34,762 nt of DNA from Saccharomonospora halophila 8. Its GTDB lineage: Bacteria; Actinomycetota; Actinomycetes; Mycobacteriales; Pseudonocardiaceae. Both the position numbers and the translations under genes were made by a program. Below the pieces are notes generated by a model that saw only the letters and a list, made by a program, of their open reading frames with translations, was not told where the DNA came from and ran no database searches. Below are positions 2,785 through 12,046 of this stretch, piece after piece (within the stretch, counting starts at the first letter, position 1; each line of letters starts with the position of its first letter). The stretch spans positions 87,317-122,078 of the forward strand of contig NZ_KB912564.1 of assembly GCF_000383775.1 (NCBI RefSeq). The letters run 5' to 3'.

Positions 2785-2803
2785 GCCGCCCACGGTCGAG
2801 GAT

Positions 2804-2831
2804 GAATGTGAAGAACCTGTCAGCATCCCGT
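2804..2831. promoter_or_regulatory. shared 28-nt upstream motif, copy A
   Basis: The segment contains TGAAGAACCTGTCAGC and matches copy B at 7053-7080 at 23 of 28 positions in the same orientation. It lies 19 nt upstream of the lipoprotein ATG and about 70 nt upstream of the response-regulator start. On the minus strand it reads as two roughly 10-bp half-sites starting CTGACA and CTTCAC, the tandem spacing expected of an OmpR-type response regulator. The binding protein is inferred. Confidence 0.5.
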
Positions 2832-2890
2832 TGTCACGCCGTGTCCTCCGCCGCACGTGGCCGCTGGTTCGCCCGCAACGGGAACCGCGG

Positions 2891-2904
2891 TAGAGTCGCA
2901 GTGA
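2891..2904 (+). promoter_or_regulatory. candidate -10 element of a leaderless response-regulator transcript
   Basis: TAGAGT at 2891-2896 fits the actinobacterial -10 pattern TANNNT and ends 7 nt before the ATG at 2904. Transcription would start at or next to the start codon, which fits the absence of a Shine-Dalgarno sequence. Confidence 0.4.
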
Positions 2905-3617
2905 TGTGTGCCCACATTATGCTGGCCGAGGACGACACGAAACAGGCAGAGCTGATCCGTCAGTATCTGGAGCGCGATCGGCATTCGGTGGTCGTCGTTA
3001 CGGACGGCCGTGCGGCCCTCGACGAGGCGCGCGGACATGTTCCGGATCTGCTCGTGCTGGACCTGATGCTACCCAAGGTGGACGGTCTGGATGTCTGCCG
3101 CATTTTGCGCCGGGAGTCCGACATTCCGGTGCTGATGTTGACTGCGCGGTCCACGGAGGATGACCTGCTACTGGGGCTGGATCTCGGTGCGGATGACTAC
3201 ATGACCAAGCCGTTCAGCCCTCGTGAACTGGCAGCCCGTGTGCGGACACTGCTCAGGCGAACCCGGGCGGCACCCGCAGCGGAGCCCGATCCACGGTTGC
3301 GGGTCGGCGCCGTGGTCGTGGACACCGCCCGGCACACGGTGACCAGTGACGGCGAGCCGGTGGACTGCACGGCGGGCGAGTTCCGGCTCTTGCAGGCCCT
3401 CGCCAGCCAACCGGAGCGGGTGTTCAACCGGGCGCAGTTGCTCGAACAGCTGCACGGCTTCGACCGCTACATGACCGAGCGCACCATCGATGTGCACGTC
3501 ATGAATCTCCGCAAGAAGATCGAACCGCAGCCGCGCAAACCGGTGCGCCTGGTGACCGTCTACGGGGTCGGCTACAAAATGGTCGGCGGCACGGACACGG
3601 ACGGCATGTGCCAATAG
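2904..3617 (+). CDS. OmpR/PhoB-family response regulator
   Basis: A 237-residue two-domain DNA-binding response regulator. The receiver domain (about 1-115) has the acidic pair Asp10/Asp11, the phospho-acceptor Asp53 in LLVLDLMLP, Thr80 in LMLTAR and Lys102 in MTKPF. The winged-helix domain (about 135-230) has the recognition region RTIDVHVMNLRKKIEP and ends VRLVTVYGVGYKM, typical of OmpR. I chose ATG 2904 because the receiver domain starts there and a TANNNT element sits 7 nt upstream; GTG 2901 is also possible. Its likely partner kinase is at 7125 on the same strand, separated from it by the leftward exporter operon. Likely targets are the two divergent promoters carrying the shared motif. 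Confidence 0.93.
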   Translation: MCAHIMLAEDDTKQAELIRQYLERDRHSVVVVTDGRAALDEARGHVPDLLVLDLMLPKVDGLDVCRILRRESDIPVLMLTARSTEDDLLLGLDLGADDYMTKPFSPRELAARVRTLLRRTRAAPAAEPDPRLRVGAVVVDTARHTVTSDGEPVDCTAGEFRLLQALASQPERVFNRAQLLEQLHGFDRYMTERTIDVHVMNLRKKIEPQPRKPVRLVTVYGVGYKMVGGTDTDGMCQ

Positions 3618-3651
3618 GCCACCATGCCGGCGCGGCCGCCGGTGTGGTGGC
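3618..3651. terminator. strong bidirectional terminator hairpin
   Basis: A nested stem: GCCACCA at 3618-3624 pairs with TGGTGGC at 3645-3651, and inside it CCGGCG at 3627-3632 pairs with CGCCGG at 3637-3642. It lies between the convergent ends of the response regulator (3617) and the permease gene (3692), so it can serve both. Confidence 0.75.
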
Positions 3652-3691
3652 TGTGACCGGGATCGCGATCCATAGTGGCACGATCACACAC

Positions 3692-4924
3692 TCAAGACGC
3701 CGCGAGGGCGGCGGTGGGTGGCAGCCGTGCGGCGCGGATGCTGGGATAAACCCCGGCGAGCGCGCCGACGGCGATCGCGCCGCCCACGCCGGCCAGGACG
3801 GCCAGCGGCGAGATGACGACTGGCCAGTTTGCGGCGACAGTGTAACCGATCGTCGCGAGGACACCGAGCAGGGTGCCGGCCAGTCCGCCGAGTCCGGACA
3901 GTGCCACCGACTCGGTCAAAAACTGCGCGCGGATCTGGCCCCGGTGCGCTCCGAGTGCGCGGCGTAGTCCGATCTCCCGTCTCCGTTCGAGGACCGAGAT
4001 CACCATCGTGTTGGCCACCCCGATCGCGCCGACCAGCAGGGCGACTCCGGCCAGCGCAAGGAACAACTCCGAGAACGTGGACTCGGCGGCGCGTTTGGCC
4101 GCGAGCGCGGCGGATGGGTCGCTGACCCGGATCATCCCGGGCAGCTTCGGATGGACGGTCTCGGAGAGCACGCCGCGTACCGCGGACACGTGCCCCTCCT
4201 GCGCCTGTGTGTAGACCACGGTGGGATGCCCGTCGAAGTCGAGGAACTTCCGGGCGCTGTCCCAGCCGACCAGCACGGCGCGGCCGAGCTGCGGATACAG
4301 TTTCAGTTCCGCGAGGATGCCGCTGACGGTGAACCACTGGTTGTCGATCACCACAAGCGGAGCCGGTTCGCCTGAGCGCAGCCGGGATATTCCGAGCCGC
4401 TTGGCGGCCACGTGACCGAGGATCACCGTGGGCAGGCCGTCGGTGGTGTTGTCGAGGAACCGGCCTGCCCGCATCGTCCCGTTGACGGTGCGGAGCAGGT
4501 TGTTCTTACTGGCCAGCACCGCGAGTCCGGAACCGTAGGCGGGGTTGACGAGGTCTGAACGTCGCACCTTGGCATGGGTGTTCCCGACGGCACTCGCCGT
4601 GGTGACCGGGCCGATGCGGCGGACCATGTCCACCGACTGCTTCGGCAGCGTGACCTGTTCCTGCTCGCCGGGAACGGATTGTGCCTGGGCGGTGAGCATG
4701 TTGGTGCCAAGCTCGTCGAGCTCGTTGTTCAGCTTCTGCTGGCTGGATGCCGGGATCGCGATCACCGTGATCATGGTGGCGATGCCGATCGAAATCCCCA
4801 GCGCCGAGAGGACCGCACGCAGCGGCCGGGTACGAATACCCAACAACCCGAGACCGAGCAGGTCGGACAGTGCCAGACGCGCCGGTCGGTTGTGCTCACG
4901 CGTGCGCCCTGAGAGTCGGGTCAC
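3692..4924 (-). CDS. MacB/FtsX-type ABC transporter permease
   Basis: A 410-residue inner-membrane permease of the MacB/FtsX family. A first membrane helix, [23 protein letters not shown], is followed by a large extracytoplasmic domain of about 220 residues (the MacB periplasmic-core region). The C-terminal three-helix FtsX domain starts at [21 protein letters not shown] and includes the hallmark [14 protein letters not shown] loop. I chose GTG 4924 because GGAGG at about 4936-4940 precedes it; an upstream ATG at 4957 is less well placed. The start overlaps the ATPase gene by 29 nt, so the two are translationally coupled. The substrate is unknown; relatives export peptides, antibiotics or lipids. 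Confidence 0.9.
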
Positions 4925-5615
4925 TCTGGGCACCCCCTCCTGTGTCGGTGACCACACGGCCGTCGAGGATGTGCACCTGTCTGGGGCATTGGTCCGCGAT
5001 GGCCAGGTCGTGGGTGATCACCGCGATGGTGGTGCCTTCCTCATTCAGCCGGAACAGCAGCTCCAGCACGGCATGACCGGTCCTGCTGTCCAATGCACCG
5101 GTCGGTTCGTCCGCCAACACCAGCGCGGGTTCATTGACCAGGGCCCTGGCGATGGCAACCCGCTGGCACTCCCCACCGGACAGCTCGCCGGGACGGTGCT
5201 CACCCCGGTTCGCCAACCCCACCCGGGACAGGGCCGCCCGCGCCCGTTTGTGCCGTTGTCGCCGCCGCACCCCGGCGTAGAGCTGACCGGTGGCGACGTT
5301 CTCCACCGCGGACAGTCCCGCGGCGAGGTGGAACTGCTGGAACACGAAACCGAGCCTGCGGGCACGCAACGCGGACAACGCGCGATCGGAGAGCTCGGCG
5401 GTGTCCCTTCCCCCGAACTCGACGGTCCCGCTGCTCGGACGATCCAGCGTGCCCATGATGTTGAGCAGTGTGGACTTCCCGGACCCGGAGGGGCCCACGA
5501 TCGCCAACAGCTCGCCCTGCCGCGCGGTCAGCGACACGTCGGCGAGGGCGGTGGCCCCCGGATAGGTCCTACTCACCTCGCGTACCGCGATCACCGGCGG
5601 GTCTTCGGCAGTCAC
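4896..5615 (-). CDS. ABC transporter ATP-binding protein (MacB/LolD type)
   Basis: A 239-residue ATPase that powers the neighbouring FtsX-type permease. Visible motifs are Walker [10 protein letters not shown] at 41-49, the Q-loop in FVFQQFHL, the signature LSGGECQRV at 145-153, Walker [14 protein letters not shown] at about 164-176, and the switch histidine in [12 protein letters not shown]. Sequence and length match the LolD/MacB subfamily rather than importer ATPases. Its ATG overlaps the stop of the membrane-fusion gene (ATGA at 5612-5615), and its end overlaps the permease start, so the three proteins are made as one unit. Confidence 0.95.
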
Positions 5616-7033
5616 GAGGTCGTCACCACCTTGGTGCCCGGCTCGATGCCGTCCCCTGTGATCTCGATCTTGCCGCGGACGGACATTCCGGTCTGCACCT
5701 TGACGAGCCCGCGCTCGGGAACCCGTACGGCATAACCCCCTTCGCGTAAGGTAAGCAGCGCACCGACCGGCACGACCAGTACGTCCTCGTGGGTCTTCGT
5801 GGTGAACCGGACCTGCACGGGCCCCGGTTCACCATCCACCTTCTTGTGGTCGGTCAGGGTGACGGTCACCTTCCGCTCGGATTCCCCGGGACCATCCGGT
5901 GACCCGCTGCCCGGCGAACCGCCCTTGGTCACCGGTTCGATGGTGGCGACCTTGCCTGGTGCCGTGGTGTCGTCCGGCAGTGTCACCGTGACCTCTTGGC
6001 CCTCCGCGATCGCGTCGAGATCGGACACCGGTGCCCGTACGATCACCGCCTTGGCCGTCGACGAGACGGTCAGCACCGTGTCCTCGGCGTTATCGCCGAG
6101 TTGGGCCCGCACCGCATCCACCCGCACCTCACCCGGCAGCACAGCCACGTGGCCGAGACCGAGTACCCCGGTCGCAGGCATCCCTACATCCCGCTGCCAG
6201 CGTTCGATCGCATCGATCAACGAGGCGGTAAGCACCGCGTCCCCCTCACGCACCGTCACGGTGTCGGCTTCGGCGTCGGAGCCGTCCGAGCTCTCGGTGG
6301 ATGTGCCCGTGTCCGCGCCGCCGGACGGCGGCGCCGCACTTCTGCCGGAGTCGCCGGACCGCGACTGCTGCCCGGACGAGTCGTCCTGCTGCGGTGTGTC
6401 CGGACGCGGCAGAACCGTGCCCACAGGCGGCTGCTGTCCGACGCGATACTCCAGCGTGGCCAAGTTGTTCGCGACCACCCGCACGTCACGACCGACCATG
6501 CCCTCGGTGTCCAGTGTGCGGTACAGCGGAGTGTCACCGTAGAACACCGGAACGGGACTATCGTCGACGCGGTAAAGCTGCTCACCCCTGCCCACCGTGT
6601 CGCCCACGGCGGGAAGCTCGGTCACGATGCCGCTCGCGGAGCCCGTGAGCGGCCGCTTCGCGGTGTAGTCAAGGTTCCCGGTCAACGTCGCGCTCTCGGA
6701 GAGGTCTCCGCGTTGCACCGCGACTGCCTCGACCGGGACACGCTCGCGGCTATTGCTCGATTCGTCGTCACGCTGCGCCCAGAAGGCGGCGAACGCGCCC
6801 GTACCGACAACGAGCACGGCGACCAAGCCGAGCACCACCCATCGCTTCTTCCGAGGCCGCTTCTCGGGTGGCTTCTCGGCGTTGTCGGCCTCCTCGCCCG
6901 ACCGCTGGGCCGAGGTCTCGTCGTCCAGAATCCCGCAGACCGGCATCACCTCGGTCGGATGCGCCGCGTTGTCGGGATCTCCTGCCTGCCGCGGATACGG
7001 GTCCGGCACACCTGCGCCCTCGGGATCACCCAT
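5612..7033 (-). CDS. membrane-fusion (adaptor) protein with peptidoglycan-binding-like domain
   Basis: Adaptor subunit of the exporter. A cytoplasmic acidic N-terminus is followed by one membrane helix, [21 protein letters not shown]. The extracytoplasmic part starts with a lipoyl-like barrel ([27 protein letters not shown]). Next comes a peptidoglycan-binding-like segment ([19 protein letters not shown] and [21 protein letters not shown]), interrupted by a low-complexity Ser/Gly/Asp-rich insert of about 50 residues, and then the C-terminal beta domains. I prefer ATG 7033 over ATG 7045. That start places the shared motif 19 nt upstream, exactly as in the lipoprotein gene. It is the first gene of the exporter operon, divergent from the histidine kinase. 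Confidence 0.85.
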
Positions 7034-7052
7034 ATCGTCGATCATCGGCGAG

Positions 7053-7080
7053 GAATATGAAGATCGTGTCAGCGTGCCGT
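7053..7080. promoter_or_regulatory. shared 28-nt upstream motif, copy B
   Basis: The segment contains TGAAGATCGTGTCAGC and matches copy A at 2804-2831 at 23 of 28 positions. It sits in the divergent region between the adaptor gene (start 7033 or 7045) and the kinase gene (7125). With the 7033 start the distance to the leftward gene equals that in copy A. Confidence 0.5.
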
Positions 7081-7111: not shown

Positions 7112-7125
7112 TACCGTCGATCGGG
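7112..7125 (+). promoter_or_regulatory. candidate -10 element of a leaderless kinase transcript
   Basis: TACCGT at 7112-7117 fits TANNNT and is followed by 7 nt and then the GTG start at 7125. There is no Shine-Dalgarno sequence. The geometry matches that in front of the response-regulator gene. Confidence 0.35.
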
Positions 7126-8924
7126 TGTCCAAGAAGCGCCCCGGGTCACCACGCCGTAAAAGCCTCCTCGTCCGGCTACTGGTGCTCTCGGCCCTCGTGG
7201 CCGCCTGCTCCATCGCGGCCACCACCTGGCTCGCCGTGCAGACCACCACGCGGGCGGTCCTGCACCAGCAAGCCCAACGACCCGCTGCGCAAGTCAAGAT
7301 CTACCAGAAGCTGACCAGCTACGCCGCCACCCACAACCAGTGGAACGGTGTCGCCGGAACGATCCGCGACCTCGCCGAACGAACCGGGAAGCACATCGTC
7401 CTGACCACAACCCAGCGGCGACCCATCGCGTCATCCGGTCCGGCCGCAGCGGCACCGCGGGGAACACCGTCCGCGGTCATCGACCCGCTGCACGTCGATC
7501 CGGCACTGGAACCGGACGCCGGACCCGACCGCATCGACCCGCGTGCGATCGGACCGTTCCGACTGACCGAGGCCGAACGCACACACCGAGACCAACTGGC
7601 GACCAGAATCGCATCCTGCCTGCACAGCAGAGGGATCCCCGCCACGATCAGCCGCGAACCCAACGGCGGTCCCACCATCGAGATCTCGGGCCACAACCGG
7701 CCCAGCTACGAGCGCAGATGCGGCATCAGCAGCCTCACCAGTCACACAGCCACCGAGCAACAGGCACTCCACCAGCTCCACACACTGGTCAATGACTGCC
7801 TGCGCACCAAGAACCTCGGCCCGGTTCGCCTCAACATGTCTGCCGACCTGTCCTTCACCTGGATCGGCAACGACCGTGCGAGCGGCGCTGTGCGGACGTG
7901 CCTGAACGAGAGCAGGCGCGAGCAACTGCGCCCCCACGTGGCACCCGCGGCTTTGCTGTTCATCACCGCGCCGAGCGGAGATCCCACCCCCGGCTTCACA
8001 CTCTCGACCGCCGACACGGCCCTGATCGCGGCCGCCGCGGCACTCGTGCTCCTTGTCACGATCGGTGTCACGGTTGTCGTCGGTACCCGACTGACCCGAC
8101 CGCTGCACGCGCTGACCGCGGCCGCACGCGACCCCGAACGGAACACCCCGGTCCCGGCCACGACGAACGACGAGATCGGCCGGCTGACGAGCGCCTTCAA
8201 CGACCTCTCCGAACGCAGGCAGGAAGCGGAACGGCAACGCAAAGAGATGGTCAGCGATATCGCCCACGAGCTACGCACCCCGCTGACCAACATCCGGGGC
8301 TGGCTCGAGGCCGTCGAGGACGGCGTCACCAGCCCGGGTCCCGCATGGGTGTCCTCCACGATGGAAGACGTTCTGCTACTGCAACACATGATCGACGACT
8401 TGGGAGACCTCGCGGCGGCCGACGCGGGAACCCTGCAGGTGCATCCCGAGCCGGTCGCACTCGACGACCTGCTCAACCAGGTGGTTGCCGGACTCGGGAA
8501 CAAGGCGGACGCCGCGGAGGTCACACTGTCCACTCAGCTCGATGGACCCTCCGAGGTGGTCGTCGACCCGGTTCGACTACGGCAGATCACCGGAAACCTG
8601 CTGTCCAACGCCCTCCGGCACACGCCGGCAGGCGGGCACGTCACCGTTGCCACCCGCCAAGACGGCGATACTGCCGTCATCGACATCACCGACACCGGAA
8701 GAGGCATCGAGCCAGAGGACCTCCCCCACGTGTTCGACCGATTCTGGCGGGCAGACAAGTCGCGCAGCCGCACCACCGGCGGCAGCGGCCTCGGACTCGC
8801 CATCGTCCGGCACCTCGTCCGTGCTCACGACGGGACGGTGACCGTCACCAGCACCCCACACGTCCGAACAACGTTCACCGTTCGGCTTCCGGACGGCCAC
8901 GGATCCGAGCCGACCCCGGGTTGA
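7125..8924 (+). CDS. membrane sensor histidine kinase with cysteine-containing extracellular domain
   Basis: A 599-residue sensor kinase. An N-terminal membrane helix (about 14-40) precedes a large extracytoplasmic domain of about 260 residues, then a second helix (ALIAAAAALVLLVTIGVTVVV), a HAMP domain and the kinase core. The phospho-acceptor is His381 in SDIAHELRTPL; the N-box is GNLLSNALRHTP, G1 is DTGRGI and G2 is GGSGLGLAIV. The sensor domain contains SCLHSRG, YERRCG, NDCLRTKNLG and RTCLNES. These CLxxxG-like motifs resemble those in the lipoprotein at 2200-2784. It is the likely partner of the regulator at 2904. It starts with GTG, apparently without a leader. Confidence 0.92.
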   Translation: MSKKRPGSPRRKSLLVRLLVLSALVAACSIAATTWLAVQTTTRAVLHQQAQRPAAQVKIYQKLTSYAATHNQWNGVAGTIRDLAERTGKHIVLTTTQRRPIASSGPAAAAPRGTPSAVIDPLHVDPALEPDAGPDRIDPRAIGPFRLTEAERTHRDQLATRIASCLHSRGIPATISREPNGGPTIEISGHNRPSYERRCGISSLTSHTATEQQALHQLHTLVNDCLRTKNLGPVRLNMSADLSFTWIGNDRASGAVRTCLNESRREQLRPHVAPAALLFITAPSGDPTPGFTLSTADTALIAAAAALVLLVTIGVTVVVGTRLTRPLHALTAAARDPERNTPVPATTNDEIGRLTSAFNDLSERRQEAERQRKEMVSDIAHELRTPLTNIRGWLEAVEDGVTSPGPAWVSSTMEDVLLLQHMIDDLGDLAAADAGTLQVHPEPVALDDLLNQVVAGLGNKADAAEVTLSTQLDGPSEVVVDPVRLRQITGNLLSNALRHTPAGGHVTVATRQDGDTAVIDITDTGRGIEPEDLPHVFDRFWRADKSRSRTTGGSGLGLAIVRHLVRAHDGTVTVTSTPHVRTTFTVRLPDGHGSEPTPG

Positions 8925-9308: not shown

Positions 9309-12005
9309 TCACGGTCGGCAGGACAATCGCAACCCGCCCCAGTCGGCGTGGTCGTAATCGACACCGTCCCCGCCGTCGCCGACGTGGAGCCGCAGTAACT
9401 CGACGCCGTCGACGGCGACGCGGAACGGGTGCGGACCTTCGGCGCCGTCGAGCACCGGCGACTCCGCCAGCACCGTCCCATCACCGGAGACGGTGAAAGC
9501 GGCCGATCCCCGCTCGCCCACCTCGTCGTCCACCCCGACCTCGGCGGTGAGCTGGTCGCAGCGTCCGCCGAGGTAGACCTCCACCGACGAGTGCGCGTGG
9601 ACGCCGAGTCCCCGGTCGAACGTGGTACCGTCGACGGTCAGCGGACCACCGTCGGCGGCCTCTCGCTCCCCATTCGACCGGTTCCGCTCGACCGGGCCCC
9701 ACCCGTTGTCGGCGCGGACGAACTCCATCTCACTGACGTAGGTATCGCCGTGCGGGGGCTCGGGCGGAACCAGCGCTGTCACCGCACGCTCGACGTGTAC
9801 GGGTTCGCGTGTGGCGGGGTCACCGGGCAGGCGGTACTCCGCGGCCACGGGCAGGTCGGTGCGGCCGCGTGCGCCGTCGCGGGGCGCGGTGAGGGTCCAG
9901 GTTCCGGTCACCGGCTCACCGGCGGCGAGGGTAGCCTTCCGGACGGGCTCGCCCGTGACCGTCCAACCCCGCGGAGCGTCCGGACGCAGCGTGACGTCGC
10001 GGATCCGCTGACCCTCGTCGAGCGTGAACGTGGCCGTCACCTCCACCGACCGGCCGGGCGGCACGGTCGCCGATTCCGGGTCGAGCGCGAGAGTGGTGGC
10101 GGGAACGGTACGCACCGGCCGGTCGCAGTGGTCCCGGCCCGGCTCGGCCGGGCAGAGCACGGCGGCGAACCCGCCGTTCTCGGCCACGGGTACCGACATC
10201 TCCTCGCCCGCGTGCACGGTCGTCGACTCGCGGACCAGCCCGGAACCGTCGGCGGTGTCGCGGTAGACGTCGGCCCGCCATCGACCGTCGCCGAGGACGT
10301 CGAGCGGCGCCGACAGGGTGCGCGCGGAGCCCGCGGCGATCCCGCCCACGAACCAGCGGTCCCCGGAGCGCCGAGCCAGAACGGCCTGCTCACCGGGTTC
10401 ACCGGAGAGCAGCTCGGTGTCGTCCCACACCGTGGGCACCTGGTCGAGGAACCGGTGCGCGACCGGGTGTTCGGCGTAGACCTCCGGCCGGTCGGCCAGG
10501 TGCAGCAGCGCCGACTCGAACACCACGGGCAGCGCCACCTCGTGCCCCGTCGAGGTGTGCCGGGTGTCCTGGGACAGGGTCACCGGGGTGTAGTCCATCG
10601 AGCCGACCACGTTCCGGGTGAACGGCAGCGTCGTGTTGTGCGCCGGGGTGACACCGTGGTCGGCGGTGAACGAGTAGTACTCCGCCCCGCGCACGGCCTC
10701 GTAGGTCATCAGATGCGGCCAGGTGCGGCTGAGTCCTTTCGGGATGGTCGAGCCGTGGAAGTTGACCATTAGCCGGTGCTCGGCGGTGGCGGCCAGCACC
10801 CGCTCGTACCAGTCGTGGCGGTCGGCGCCCTCGCCATGCCCGCCGCCGTTGTTCATGAAATCGATCTTGACCCCGCGTACGCCCCAGTCGGCGAGGCGGC
10901 CGAACCAGTGATTCATCTCCTCGGCGGTGTCCACGTCCCACCAGTGGAACCAGAGCAGCACGTCGACGCCGCGTGCGCGGGCGTACCGGGTGATCTCCGG
11001 CACCCAGGACGCGTCCCAGCCCTCGTCGATCAGTACGTAGGGCCAGCCGTGCTCGGCGGCGTGGTCGATGTAGTCGCGCTGGCGCTCGGGATCACGCGGA
11101 CTCTCGTGCTCCGGCAGCCACGACCACGCCACGCTGCCCGGCCGGATCCAGGAGGTGTCGGCGACGCGCGAGTCCGGTGCCAGGTCGTCGACGAGGGTGG
11201 ATTCGGTCACGGTGCCGAGGTCGCCGACGACGGCCACCCGCCACGGTGTGGTCAGCGGGCCGTCCGAGGCGGGCGGTCGCTCGACCAGGCTGAGGCGGTA
11301 GTCACCACCGCCGTCGTGGGTGAGCTTGCCGCCCGGGTAGGCCGAGGTCATCCCCGACTCGGTGAGCAGCACGTGCGGGTCGTCGTGGGTGTCACCGACG
11401 CGGAAGAGCGCGGGGTGGCCGTAGTCCCCTTCGGGCGCCGACCCCGCGGTCGTGGTGAAGCGCGGTTGTTCGTACCAGGAATTGTGCTGCAGCATCCAGG
11501 CGGTCGAGGAGGCCGGAAGCTCCCAGGAGGAGGCTTCGCGCAACACCGCCGTACCGTCCGGGTCAGGCAGGTGGTAGCGGTACGCGATGCCGTCGCGGGC
11601 GACGCGGACGACGAGATCGAGCCGGGTGCCGTCGGCGGCGGCGAAGCTCAACGTGGATTCGCGCAGCACGGCGTGGCGGTCGCGTCGTTTACCGGTGGGC
11701 ATGCGGTAGTTCTCGACGATGGTGCGGTCCGTACGCCCGGTGAAGGTGAGGTCGTGGGAGAGGTCGGCTTCCTCGGTGACGACGCCGACCTCGGAGGGCG
11801 GCAGGACGGCCGATCCGTTCCGGGTCACTCCGAGTTCCGGAGTTCCGTCGACGAGGCGGACCACGGCGGCGAGTTCGGATCCGGGCCCGGTCACGGTCCA
11901 GTCGGTTCGCTCGGCGGCTGCCGGTGGCACGGTGAGGGCGGTGCCGGTGAGGCCGGCGACGAGTGTGCCCACCGTGGCGGCATCGCGCACGGTTGACCAG
12001 CGCAT
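9309..12005 (-). CDS. secreted glycoside hydrolase family 97 enzyme with NEW3-like and NPCBM domains
   Basis: An 898-residue exported glycosidase. The signal peptide MRWSTVRDAATVGTL... is probably cleaved after PPAAA (about residue 31). The GH97 N-terminal beta domain (about 32-270) is followed by a catalytic barrel starting near SVAWSWLPEHESPRD. Asp382 in GVKIDFMNNGG is the likely nucleophile, and TYEAVRGAEYY matches the family's EGxRGxE element. After the GH97 C-terminal domain come a NEW3-like beta domain (about 650-745) and an NPCBM carbohydrate-binding module (about 755-898, ending WGGLRLSCRP). The Asp nucleophile position suggests the retaining, alpha-galactosidase-like branch. GGGAG lies 5 nt before ATG 12005, preferred over GTG 12011. 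No sugar transporter is adjacent. Confidence 0.9.
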   Translation of the reverse strand: MRWSTVRDAATVGTLVAGLTGTALTVPPAAAERTDWTVTGPGSELAAVVRLVDGTPELGVTRNGSAVLPPSEVGVVTEEADLSHDLTFTGRTDRTIVENYRMPTGKRRDRHAVLRESTLSFAAADGTRLDLVVRVARDGIAYRYHLPDPDGTAVLREASSWELPASSTAWMLQHNSWYEQPRFTTTAGSAPEGDYGHPALFRVGDTHDDPHVLLTESGMTSAYPGGKLTHDGGGDYRLSLVERPPASDGPLTTPWRVAVVGDLGTVTESTLVDDLAPDSRVADTSWIRPGSVAWSWLPEHESPRDPERQRDYIDHAAEHGWPYVLIDEGWDASWVPEITRYARARGVDVLLWFHWWDVDTAEEMNHWFGRLADWGVRGVKIDFMNNGGGHGEGADRHDWYERVLAATAEHRLMVNFHGSTIPKGLSRTWPHLMTYEAVRGAEYYSFTADHGVTPAHNTTLPFTRNVVGSMDYTPVTLSQDTRHTSTGHEVALPVVFESALLHLADRPEVYAEHPVAHRFLDQVPTVWDDTELLSGEPGEQAVLARRSGDRWFVGGIAAGSARTLSAPLDVLGDGRWRADVYRDTADGSGLVRESTTVHAGEEMSVPVAENGGFAAVLCPAEPGRDHCDRPVRTVPATTLALDPESATVPPGRSVEVTATFTLDEGQRIRDVTLRPDAPRGWTVTGEPVRKATLAAGEPVTGTWTLTAPRDGARGRTDLPVAAEYRLPGDPATREPVHVERAVTALVPPEPPHGDTYVSEMEFVRADNGWGPVERNRSNGEREAADGGPLTVDGTTFDRGLGVHAHSSVEVYLGGRCDQLTAEVGVDDEVGERGSAAFTVSGDGTVLAESPVLDGAEGPHPFRVAVDGVELLRLHVGDGGDGVDYDHADWGGLRLSCRP

Positions 12006-12046
12006 GTCCACTCCCGTTCGTTATTTGTTGTTTTATGTTCGTGTGT

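Follow-up and report, generated by a model that had tools for sequence, protein, structure and literature searches.

The stretch of DNA analyzed here, 34,762 nt of Saccharomonospora halophila 8 (contig NZ_KB912564.1, positions 87,317 to 122,078; hereafter the window, with positions counted from its first letter), carries a six-gene cassette comprising a lipoprotein, an OmpR/PhoB-family response regulator, an adaptor-ATPase-permease exporter and a sensor histidine kinase. From left to right the genes are ordered lipoprotein (-), regulator (+), permease, ATPase and adaptor (-), and sensor kinase (+), and the two divergent promoters created by this arrangement each hold one copy of a 28-bp element (Table 1). 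Comparison of these two sites with each other, with related loci and with whole genomes makes it quite probable that both serve as operators for the regulator whose gene starts at 2904.

The preliminary description of this locus held that the two sites match at 23 of 28 positions, share one orientation and are each separated by 19 nt from an ATG complement, at 2784 and 7033 respectively, and all of these values were reproduced when recomputed. The best 28-mer match between dinucleotide-shuffled promoters averaged 16.5 and never exceeded 21, with 23 or more positions in 0 of 2,000 trials, and nowhere else in the whole 34.8-kb window do more than 19 of 28 positions agree with either site. Leftover homology of a duplicated, functionless intergenic region could produce such a likeness if the gene order of the window stemmed from a divergent operon pair that was duplicated and then underwent complementary loss, yet identity, 23/28 in the core, is down to 9/19 and 14/45 in the flanks and the motif is kept in distant genera, which makes this origin scarcely credible. 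The tandem half-sites proposed earlier, CTGACA and CTTCA, stand as a tandem direct repeat, with the register moved by about 1 bp and the repeat distance corrected from 10 to 11 bp. Site 1 matches itself best at a shift of 11 (9 positions), and the motif of the relatives has its autocorrelation peak at 11 bp (0.45, vs 0.21-0.32 at shifts of 7-10 and 12-15). The genome-wide search for other targets that had been suggested returned the 21-nt core built from both sites, GCTGACANGNTCTTCANATTC, exactly at two places, both in this window, and at three additional places only with 3 mismatches; it established no further target in this 3.69-Mb genome, which is 83% complete. The broader family pattern TGTSARGAWCNTGTSAGSA gave 19 own-genome matches at up to 3 mismatches vs 6 for its reversed control, with operator 1 as the sole exact place.

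The association of this element with the cassette is clearest in relatives. The adaptor and the sensor part of the kinase were searched in 200 and 397 genomes, and 60 loci picked among the matches (set 1) yielded 56 usable regulator promoters, 46 of them non-redundant and used for training. De novo learning on these 46 with the window left out (60 starts) gave cagTTGTgAgGAACCTGTcaGGat with a log-likelihood of 456, vs 80-97 for four shuffled sets (25 starts each). Scanned over the window, this motif places 2803-2826 first (28.0) and 7052-7075 second (19.4), and the next place overlapping neither site scores 8.4. The family consensus, read towards the regulator or kinase, is approximately TTGTSAGGAWCNTGTSAGGAW with the core TGTSAGGA. 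Conversely, a matrix built on nothing but the two window sites exceeded the 99th percentile of 1,120 shuffles in 31 of the 56 regulator promoters, all 31 on the regulator strand, and exceeded the shuffle maximum in 17 of them; 15 of 28 named loci lay above the same cut-off. At a score of at least 15 on the regulator strand, the relatives' motif is found in 49/56 set 1 promoters, where the 56 include the 46 used for training, and in 24/28 cassette-like regulator promoters of held-out named genomes, where 280 shuffles reached a maximum of 9.4. The held-out loci derive from 80 named loci fetched by permease profile and screened against set 1 for exact overlap only. Carriers of the site include Streptomyces, Kitasatospora, Peterkaempfera, Micromonospora, Planotetraspora, Actinoplanes, Actinosynnema and Rhodococcus. 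The 50 adaptor promoters that have no cassette regulator detected nearby never reached 15 (best 9.4) in a region that began 350 nt upstream of the estimated adaptor start and ended 60 nt past it; among them, L126 has kinase and lipoprotein matches and L149, L164, L165 and L196 have weak lipoprotein matches, and in these loci a promoter further upstream could escape. Many MacB-like exporters of the same family are thus without both a detected cassette regulator and the operator (these 50 loci, among L126-L205), and the regulator therefore seems to be a separable part.

The element also occupies a fixed place in the promoters that it would serve. On the strand opposite the regulator or kinase, the layout reads operator, 9 nt, an nAnnnT hexamer, usually 6-7 nt, and the start codon. 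The first TGT is 22 (in fewer cases 21) nt away from an opposite-strand start codon at 34/49 set 1 loci, at 16/24 named loci with a site scoring at least 15 and at both window sites, while other offsets average 0.25 and 0.21 CAT per position in set 1 and the named loci. The hexamer 9 nt from the operator has A at its second and T at its sixth base in 33/34 set 1, 16/16 named and 2/2 window cases. It sits where a -10 element would be expected if transcription began at the start codon, so that the operator would cover about -23 to -40. Both window promoters fit this spacing rule, and for that reason ATG 2784 and ATG 7033 are favoured as the likelier starts; the earlier choice of 7033 for the adaptor is supported by the same 21-22 nt spacing in relatives, and the alternative adaptor ATG 7045 falls inside the GATGAT hexamer. 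All four window promoters have an nAnnnT hexamer 7 nt before the start, with strict TANNNT on the regulator/kinase side only. On the lipoprotein/adaptor side the first hexamer base is C or G, vs consensus T, in 33/34 set 1 cases, 14/16 named cases and 20/23 of the separately placed lipoprotein genes described below. With a predicted transcription start at the start codon and an nAnnnT -10, these promoters resemble the leaderless TANNNT promoters of actinobacteria, and they differ from them on the lipoprotein/adaptor side by the mostly C/G first base and the fixed distance to the operator. Many leaderless transcripts and TANNNT -10s are described for Mycobacterium tuberculosis in PMC3898074.

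Whether lipoprotein and exporter genes that stand apart from the regulator carry operators of their own bears directly on the unusual gene order of the window. Regulator and kinase are same-strand neighbours in 56/56 and 27/27 loci with both (83/83; widest gap 395 nt), and the window is the only locus examined in which the exporter operon lies between them; here each divergent promoter has its own operator. A script took 34 lipoprotein genes as not head to head with the regulator. L118 and L088, which were mis-binned and share the regulator's operator, and L156, which lies about 0.8 kb behind the permease and has no site, were left out of the counts that follow. Among 23 separately placed lipoprotein genes, 20 outscore each of the 340 shuffles, and the remaining three, at 10.2, 10.0 and 7.8, keep the spacing; the hexamer with A2 and T6 is present in 23/23. 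Sixteen of these genes stand alone and seven closely follow the kinase gene, where the promoter would be internal. A start codon at 21-22 nt is found in 12 of the 23, and in the other 11 (L097, L092, L099, L130, L134, L136, L143, L170, L082, L086 and L087) the hexamer is still kept, so these mRNAs probably have a leader. By comparison, 0/8 lipoprotein genes directly behind the permease have a site. Of four separately placed adaptors, L147 has a site (21.4, start offset 23), L145 a weak one only (5.9), and L182 and L202 none. The two window sites appear to fit a common, not universal, rule by which separate units carry their own operator. The preliminary description would have been refuted had orthologous loci lacked the motif; at most of the regulator promoters and separately placed lipoprotein genes we find it retained, and it is absent from the 50 control promoters.

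Together, these observations suggest how the cassette may be regulated. The kinase encoded at 7125 would phosphorylate the 2904 regulator, whose role as the binding protein is inferred from its co-occurrence with the motif. On leaderless promoters, two regulator molecules would sit head to tail and span about -23 to -40, in the place of the -35 element, and the bound regulator would contact RNA polymerase and recruit it to a weak -10, in the manner of class-II activation, so that the lipoprotein and the adaptor-ATPase-permease exporter would be switched on together. The same sites may feed back on the regulator and kinase, whose -10s are nearer consensus; such feedback is likely but less certain. 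The single regulon of lipoprotein, regulator, exporter and kinase proposed earlier is supported by the relatives for the lipoprotein and exporter, and control of the regulator and kinase is the less certain part of that proposal. Activation is preferred over repression because of the fixed 9-nt spacing and the C or G at the first hexamer base in most cases. The operator span would also suit a repressor that covers the -35 region of the lipoprotein and exporter promoters and is released on signal. A repressor, however, needs no fixed phase, and the 9-nt spacing is kept even at the 11 lipoprotein genes that have no start codon 21-22 nt away; the C/G first base is as would be expected of activator-dependent promoters, and we consider repression by this regulator unlikely. 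The element might instead be a promoter rather than an operator. Extracytoplasmic function (ECF) sigma factors have the consensus -35 GGAAC, and GGAAC is present in many motif copies. With GGATC or AAGATC in place of GGAAC in other copies, conservation that extends to the second repeat and a hexamer of the nAnnnT form, the chance that these are ECF promoters is minimal.

Specificity was assessed with the pattern TTGTSAGGAWCYTGTSAGGA, which has 36 matches in 12 genomes, 29 of them (nine genomes) classified by position. All four matches with 0-1 mismatch have a kinase or adaptor match no more than 4 kb away, compared with 1/3 at 2 mismatches and 8/22 at 3 mismatches; the seven matches of G024, G062 and G129, all with 3 mismatches, fall outside this classification and none is at a listed cassette place. 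Matches with 2-3 mismatches appear to be mostly background. The location of the closest matches at cassettes, and the absence of the motif from the 50 adaptor promoters without a detected regulator, argue against ownership of the site by a global regulator such as PhoP, MtrA or GlnR whose sites overlap these promoters, and we regard this as very improbable. The PHO box bound by PhoB/PhoP is nonetheless the closest parallel in form: according to PMC4415409, it too consists of two direct repeat units of 11 nt with a conserved core and is bound by an OmpR/PhoB-type regulator, and its Escherichia coli core CTGTCAT is near CTGTCAG. The same paper gives the Streptomyces coelicolor core as GTTCACC, which differs from the TGTSAGGA core found here, and the targets seen here are the local cassette. 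One own-genome near-match, GGTGACAAGATCTTCACACTT (L004:1501-1521, between tig and clpP1), was set aside as a target because it is also present in congeners without the kinase sensor part: a similar stretch with up to 3 mismatches occurs in 10/12 genomes of the genus including this one (the clpP1 neighbourhood is known for the own genome only), and it is probably another conserved element. The other own-genome place that differs from the family pattern by 2 mismatches is G000:C22:60950-60968. The other 11 genomes of the genus gave kinase-core matches only and no sensor part in any of the 11 (E 1e-20; some genomes 82-91% complete), and the cassette therefore seems to be an accessory element of this genome.

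Several observations weigh against assigning both sites to the cassette regulator. Operator 2 is weak at 19.4, has 2 mismatches to TGTSARGAWCNTGTSAGSA and is equalled by two unrelated places in its own genome; taken alone, it also favours no 11-bp shift (6 positions at shift 11, 8 at shift 8). In the 12 genomes, many matches with 2-3 mismatches lie away from cassettes. The regulator promoter scores below 15 on the regulator strand in 7/56 set 1 loci (L069, L084, L089, L098, L106, L113 and L117) and in 4/28 named loci (L133, L138, L146 and L182). Two of the four named promoters score 10.6 and 9.5, and L138 and L182, the latter with no kinase found nearby, have none. In L106, L113, L117 and L138 the operator stands before the lipoprotein instead, strongly so in L138 (29.0), and in the remaining seven of the eleven low-scoring loci no operator was found. 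Finally, 77 nt separate operator 1 from the regulator start, a distance that does not belong to the 27/38/49/60/71 series common among relatives, whereas operator 2, at 49 nt from the kinase start, fits that series. The 11-bp phasing of operator and regulator start (Rayleigh R 0.65 and 0.70) was not relied on, as it may come partly from arrays of more than two half-sites and from related sequences.

Table 1. Candidate operators, predicted -10 elements and genes of the cassette, in window positions
Feature	Positions	Strand	Details
Candidate operator 1, GAATGTGAAGAACCTGTCAGCATCCCGT	2804..2831	+	Half-sites TGTGAAG 2807-2813 and TGTCAGC 2818-2824, 11 bp apart
Candidate operator 2, GAATATGAAGATCGTGTCAGCGTGCCGT	7053..7080	+	Half-sites TATGAAG 7056-7062 and TGTCAGC 7067-7073, 11 bp apart
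Predicted -10 GACCGT, lipoprotein promoter	2792..2797	-	9 nt from operator 1, 7 nt before ATG 2784
Predicted -10 GATGAT, adaptor operon promoter	7041..7046	-	9 nt from operator 2, 7 nt before ATG 7033
Predicted -10 TAGAGT, regulator	2891..2896	+	7 nt before ATG 2904, predicted leaderless; TANNNT-N7-start in many relatives
Predicted -10 TACCGT, kinase	7112..7117	+	7 nt before GTG 7125, predicted leaderless; TANNNT-N7-start in many relatives
Lipoprotein, 194 amino acids	2200..2784	-	ATG 2784; lipobox Cys and four further Cys
OmpR/PhoB-family response regulator	2904..3617	+	ATG 2904; PF00072 1.7e-28, PF00486 5.8e-24
MacB-like permease (FtsX + MacB_PCD)	3692..4924	-	FtsX 2e-22, MacB_PCD 1.5e-13; start codon approximate
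MacB/LolD-like ABC ATPase	4896..5615	-	ABC_tran 8.1e-34
HlyD/RND-type membrane-fusion adaptor, 473 amino acids from ATG 7033	5612..7033	-	Weak, below cut-off
Sensor histidine kinase, cysteine-containing ectodomain	7125..8924	+	GTG 7125; PF00512, PF02518, PF00672

The predicted operator, a tandem 11-bp direct repeat, belongs to a known type, that of OmpR/PhoB regulators, as judged from the repeat distance in the family motif and from a linked regulator with receiver and Trans_reg_C domains. Membership in the characterized systems of this kind is a different matter, as every curated NCBIfam cut-off was missed among the matches listed (up to 25 families per protein). The regulator scores 213.6 bits vs a cut-off of 296.2 for PhoB (TIGR02154), 221.1 vs 300 for MtrA of MtrAB (NF040689) and 180.8 vs 350 for CseB of CseABC (NF041733). 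The cassette shares with CseA-CseB-CseC of Streptomyces a lipoprotein gene beside an envelope-type regulator and kinase, as described in PMC9739842, and differs in that the lipoprotein is grouped with a MacB-like exporter and no sigma gene is among the six cassette genes. The composition of the exporter, an adaptor with a LolD/MacB-like ATPase and an FtsX/MacB permease, is that of MacAB and BaeRS-type exporters, and kinase and regulator score well with the BaeS, BaeR and MtrA models. Unlike in MacAB, the ATPase and permease here are separate proteins, which score 236.3 and 87.5 bits vs 966 for the MacB equivalog (PRK10535). The adaptor is the weak component of this assignment (RND_mfp 33 bits vs a cut-off of 94.9) and also has a weak peptidoglycan-binding match. 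Adjoining the cassette, an open reading frame of 900 amino acids (9309-12011, -) resembles, by eye, a secreted glycoside hydrolase that bears a sugar-binding domain at its C terminus.

The lipoprotein itself has no Pfam match and no significant NCBIfam match in our profile scans of the window proteins, and its lipobox Cys and four more Cys are invariant in an alignment of 19 sequences, window included. In the kinase ectodomain (24 sequences) three Cys are invariant and a fourth is nearly so, and four cysteines of the lipoprotein (2200-2784) and the ectodomain (7440-8069) are collinear in the profile alignment. Comparison by hhalign of the lipoprotein with the sensor half scored 30.6 (probability 26%; 31.0 and 28% with fewer sequences) and with the whole ectodomain 35.0 (45%, P 2e-4), probabilities that lie under the usual homology threshold; sensor-half controls scored at most 18.0 for 30 column shuffles and 10.1 when reversed. 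The ectodomain model (predicted local distance difference test, pLDDT, 85) places helix, hairpin, helix, helix, hairpin and helix around the cysteines, and the lipoprotein folded alone gave a model (pLDDT 48) too poor for comparison with it. Foldseek found no solved structure at E <0.001, and the best VIA-align match was a PAS sensor domain (Z 7.4). The cysteine pattern and profile scores are suggestive, and the lipoprotein may be a paralogue of the kinase sensing domain. A more speculative extension, which we regard as doubtful, is a self-sensing module in which the operator-driven lipoprotein would be a membrane-anchored copy of the kinase's four-cysteine sensing domain. Acting as a decoy or co-sensor, it would share the signal, which might be a thiol/disulfide or envelope-drug one, or block it, and would in this way set the gain of a widespread and apparently unnamed actinobacterial envelope-stress exporter system.

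In summary, our work gives an uncharacterized two-component/exporter cassette, seen in Streptomyces, Kitasatospora, Micromonospora, Actinoplanes, Planotetraspora, Rhodococcus, Actinosynnema and other actinobacteria, a defined candidate operator and an exact promoter layout; among the open-access literature matches listed, no description of this operator or cassette was found. Targets and start codons of such cassettes would then be readable from sequence, and the unusual split cassette of this window provides a natural test of the layout rule. It is plausible that such cassettes are envelope-stress or drug-export systems, and the actinobacteria that carry them are a group rich in antibiotic producers.

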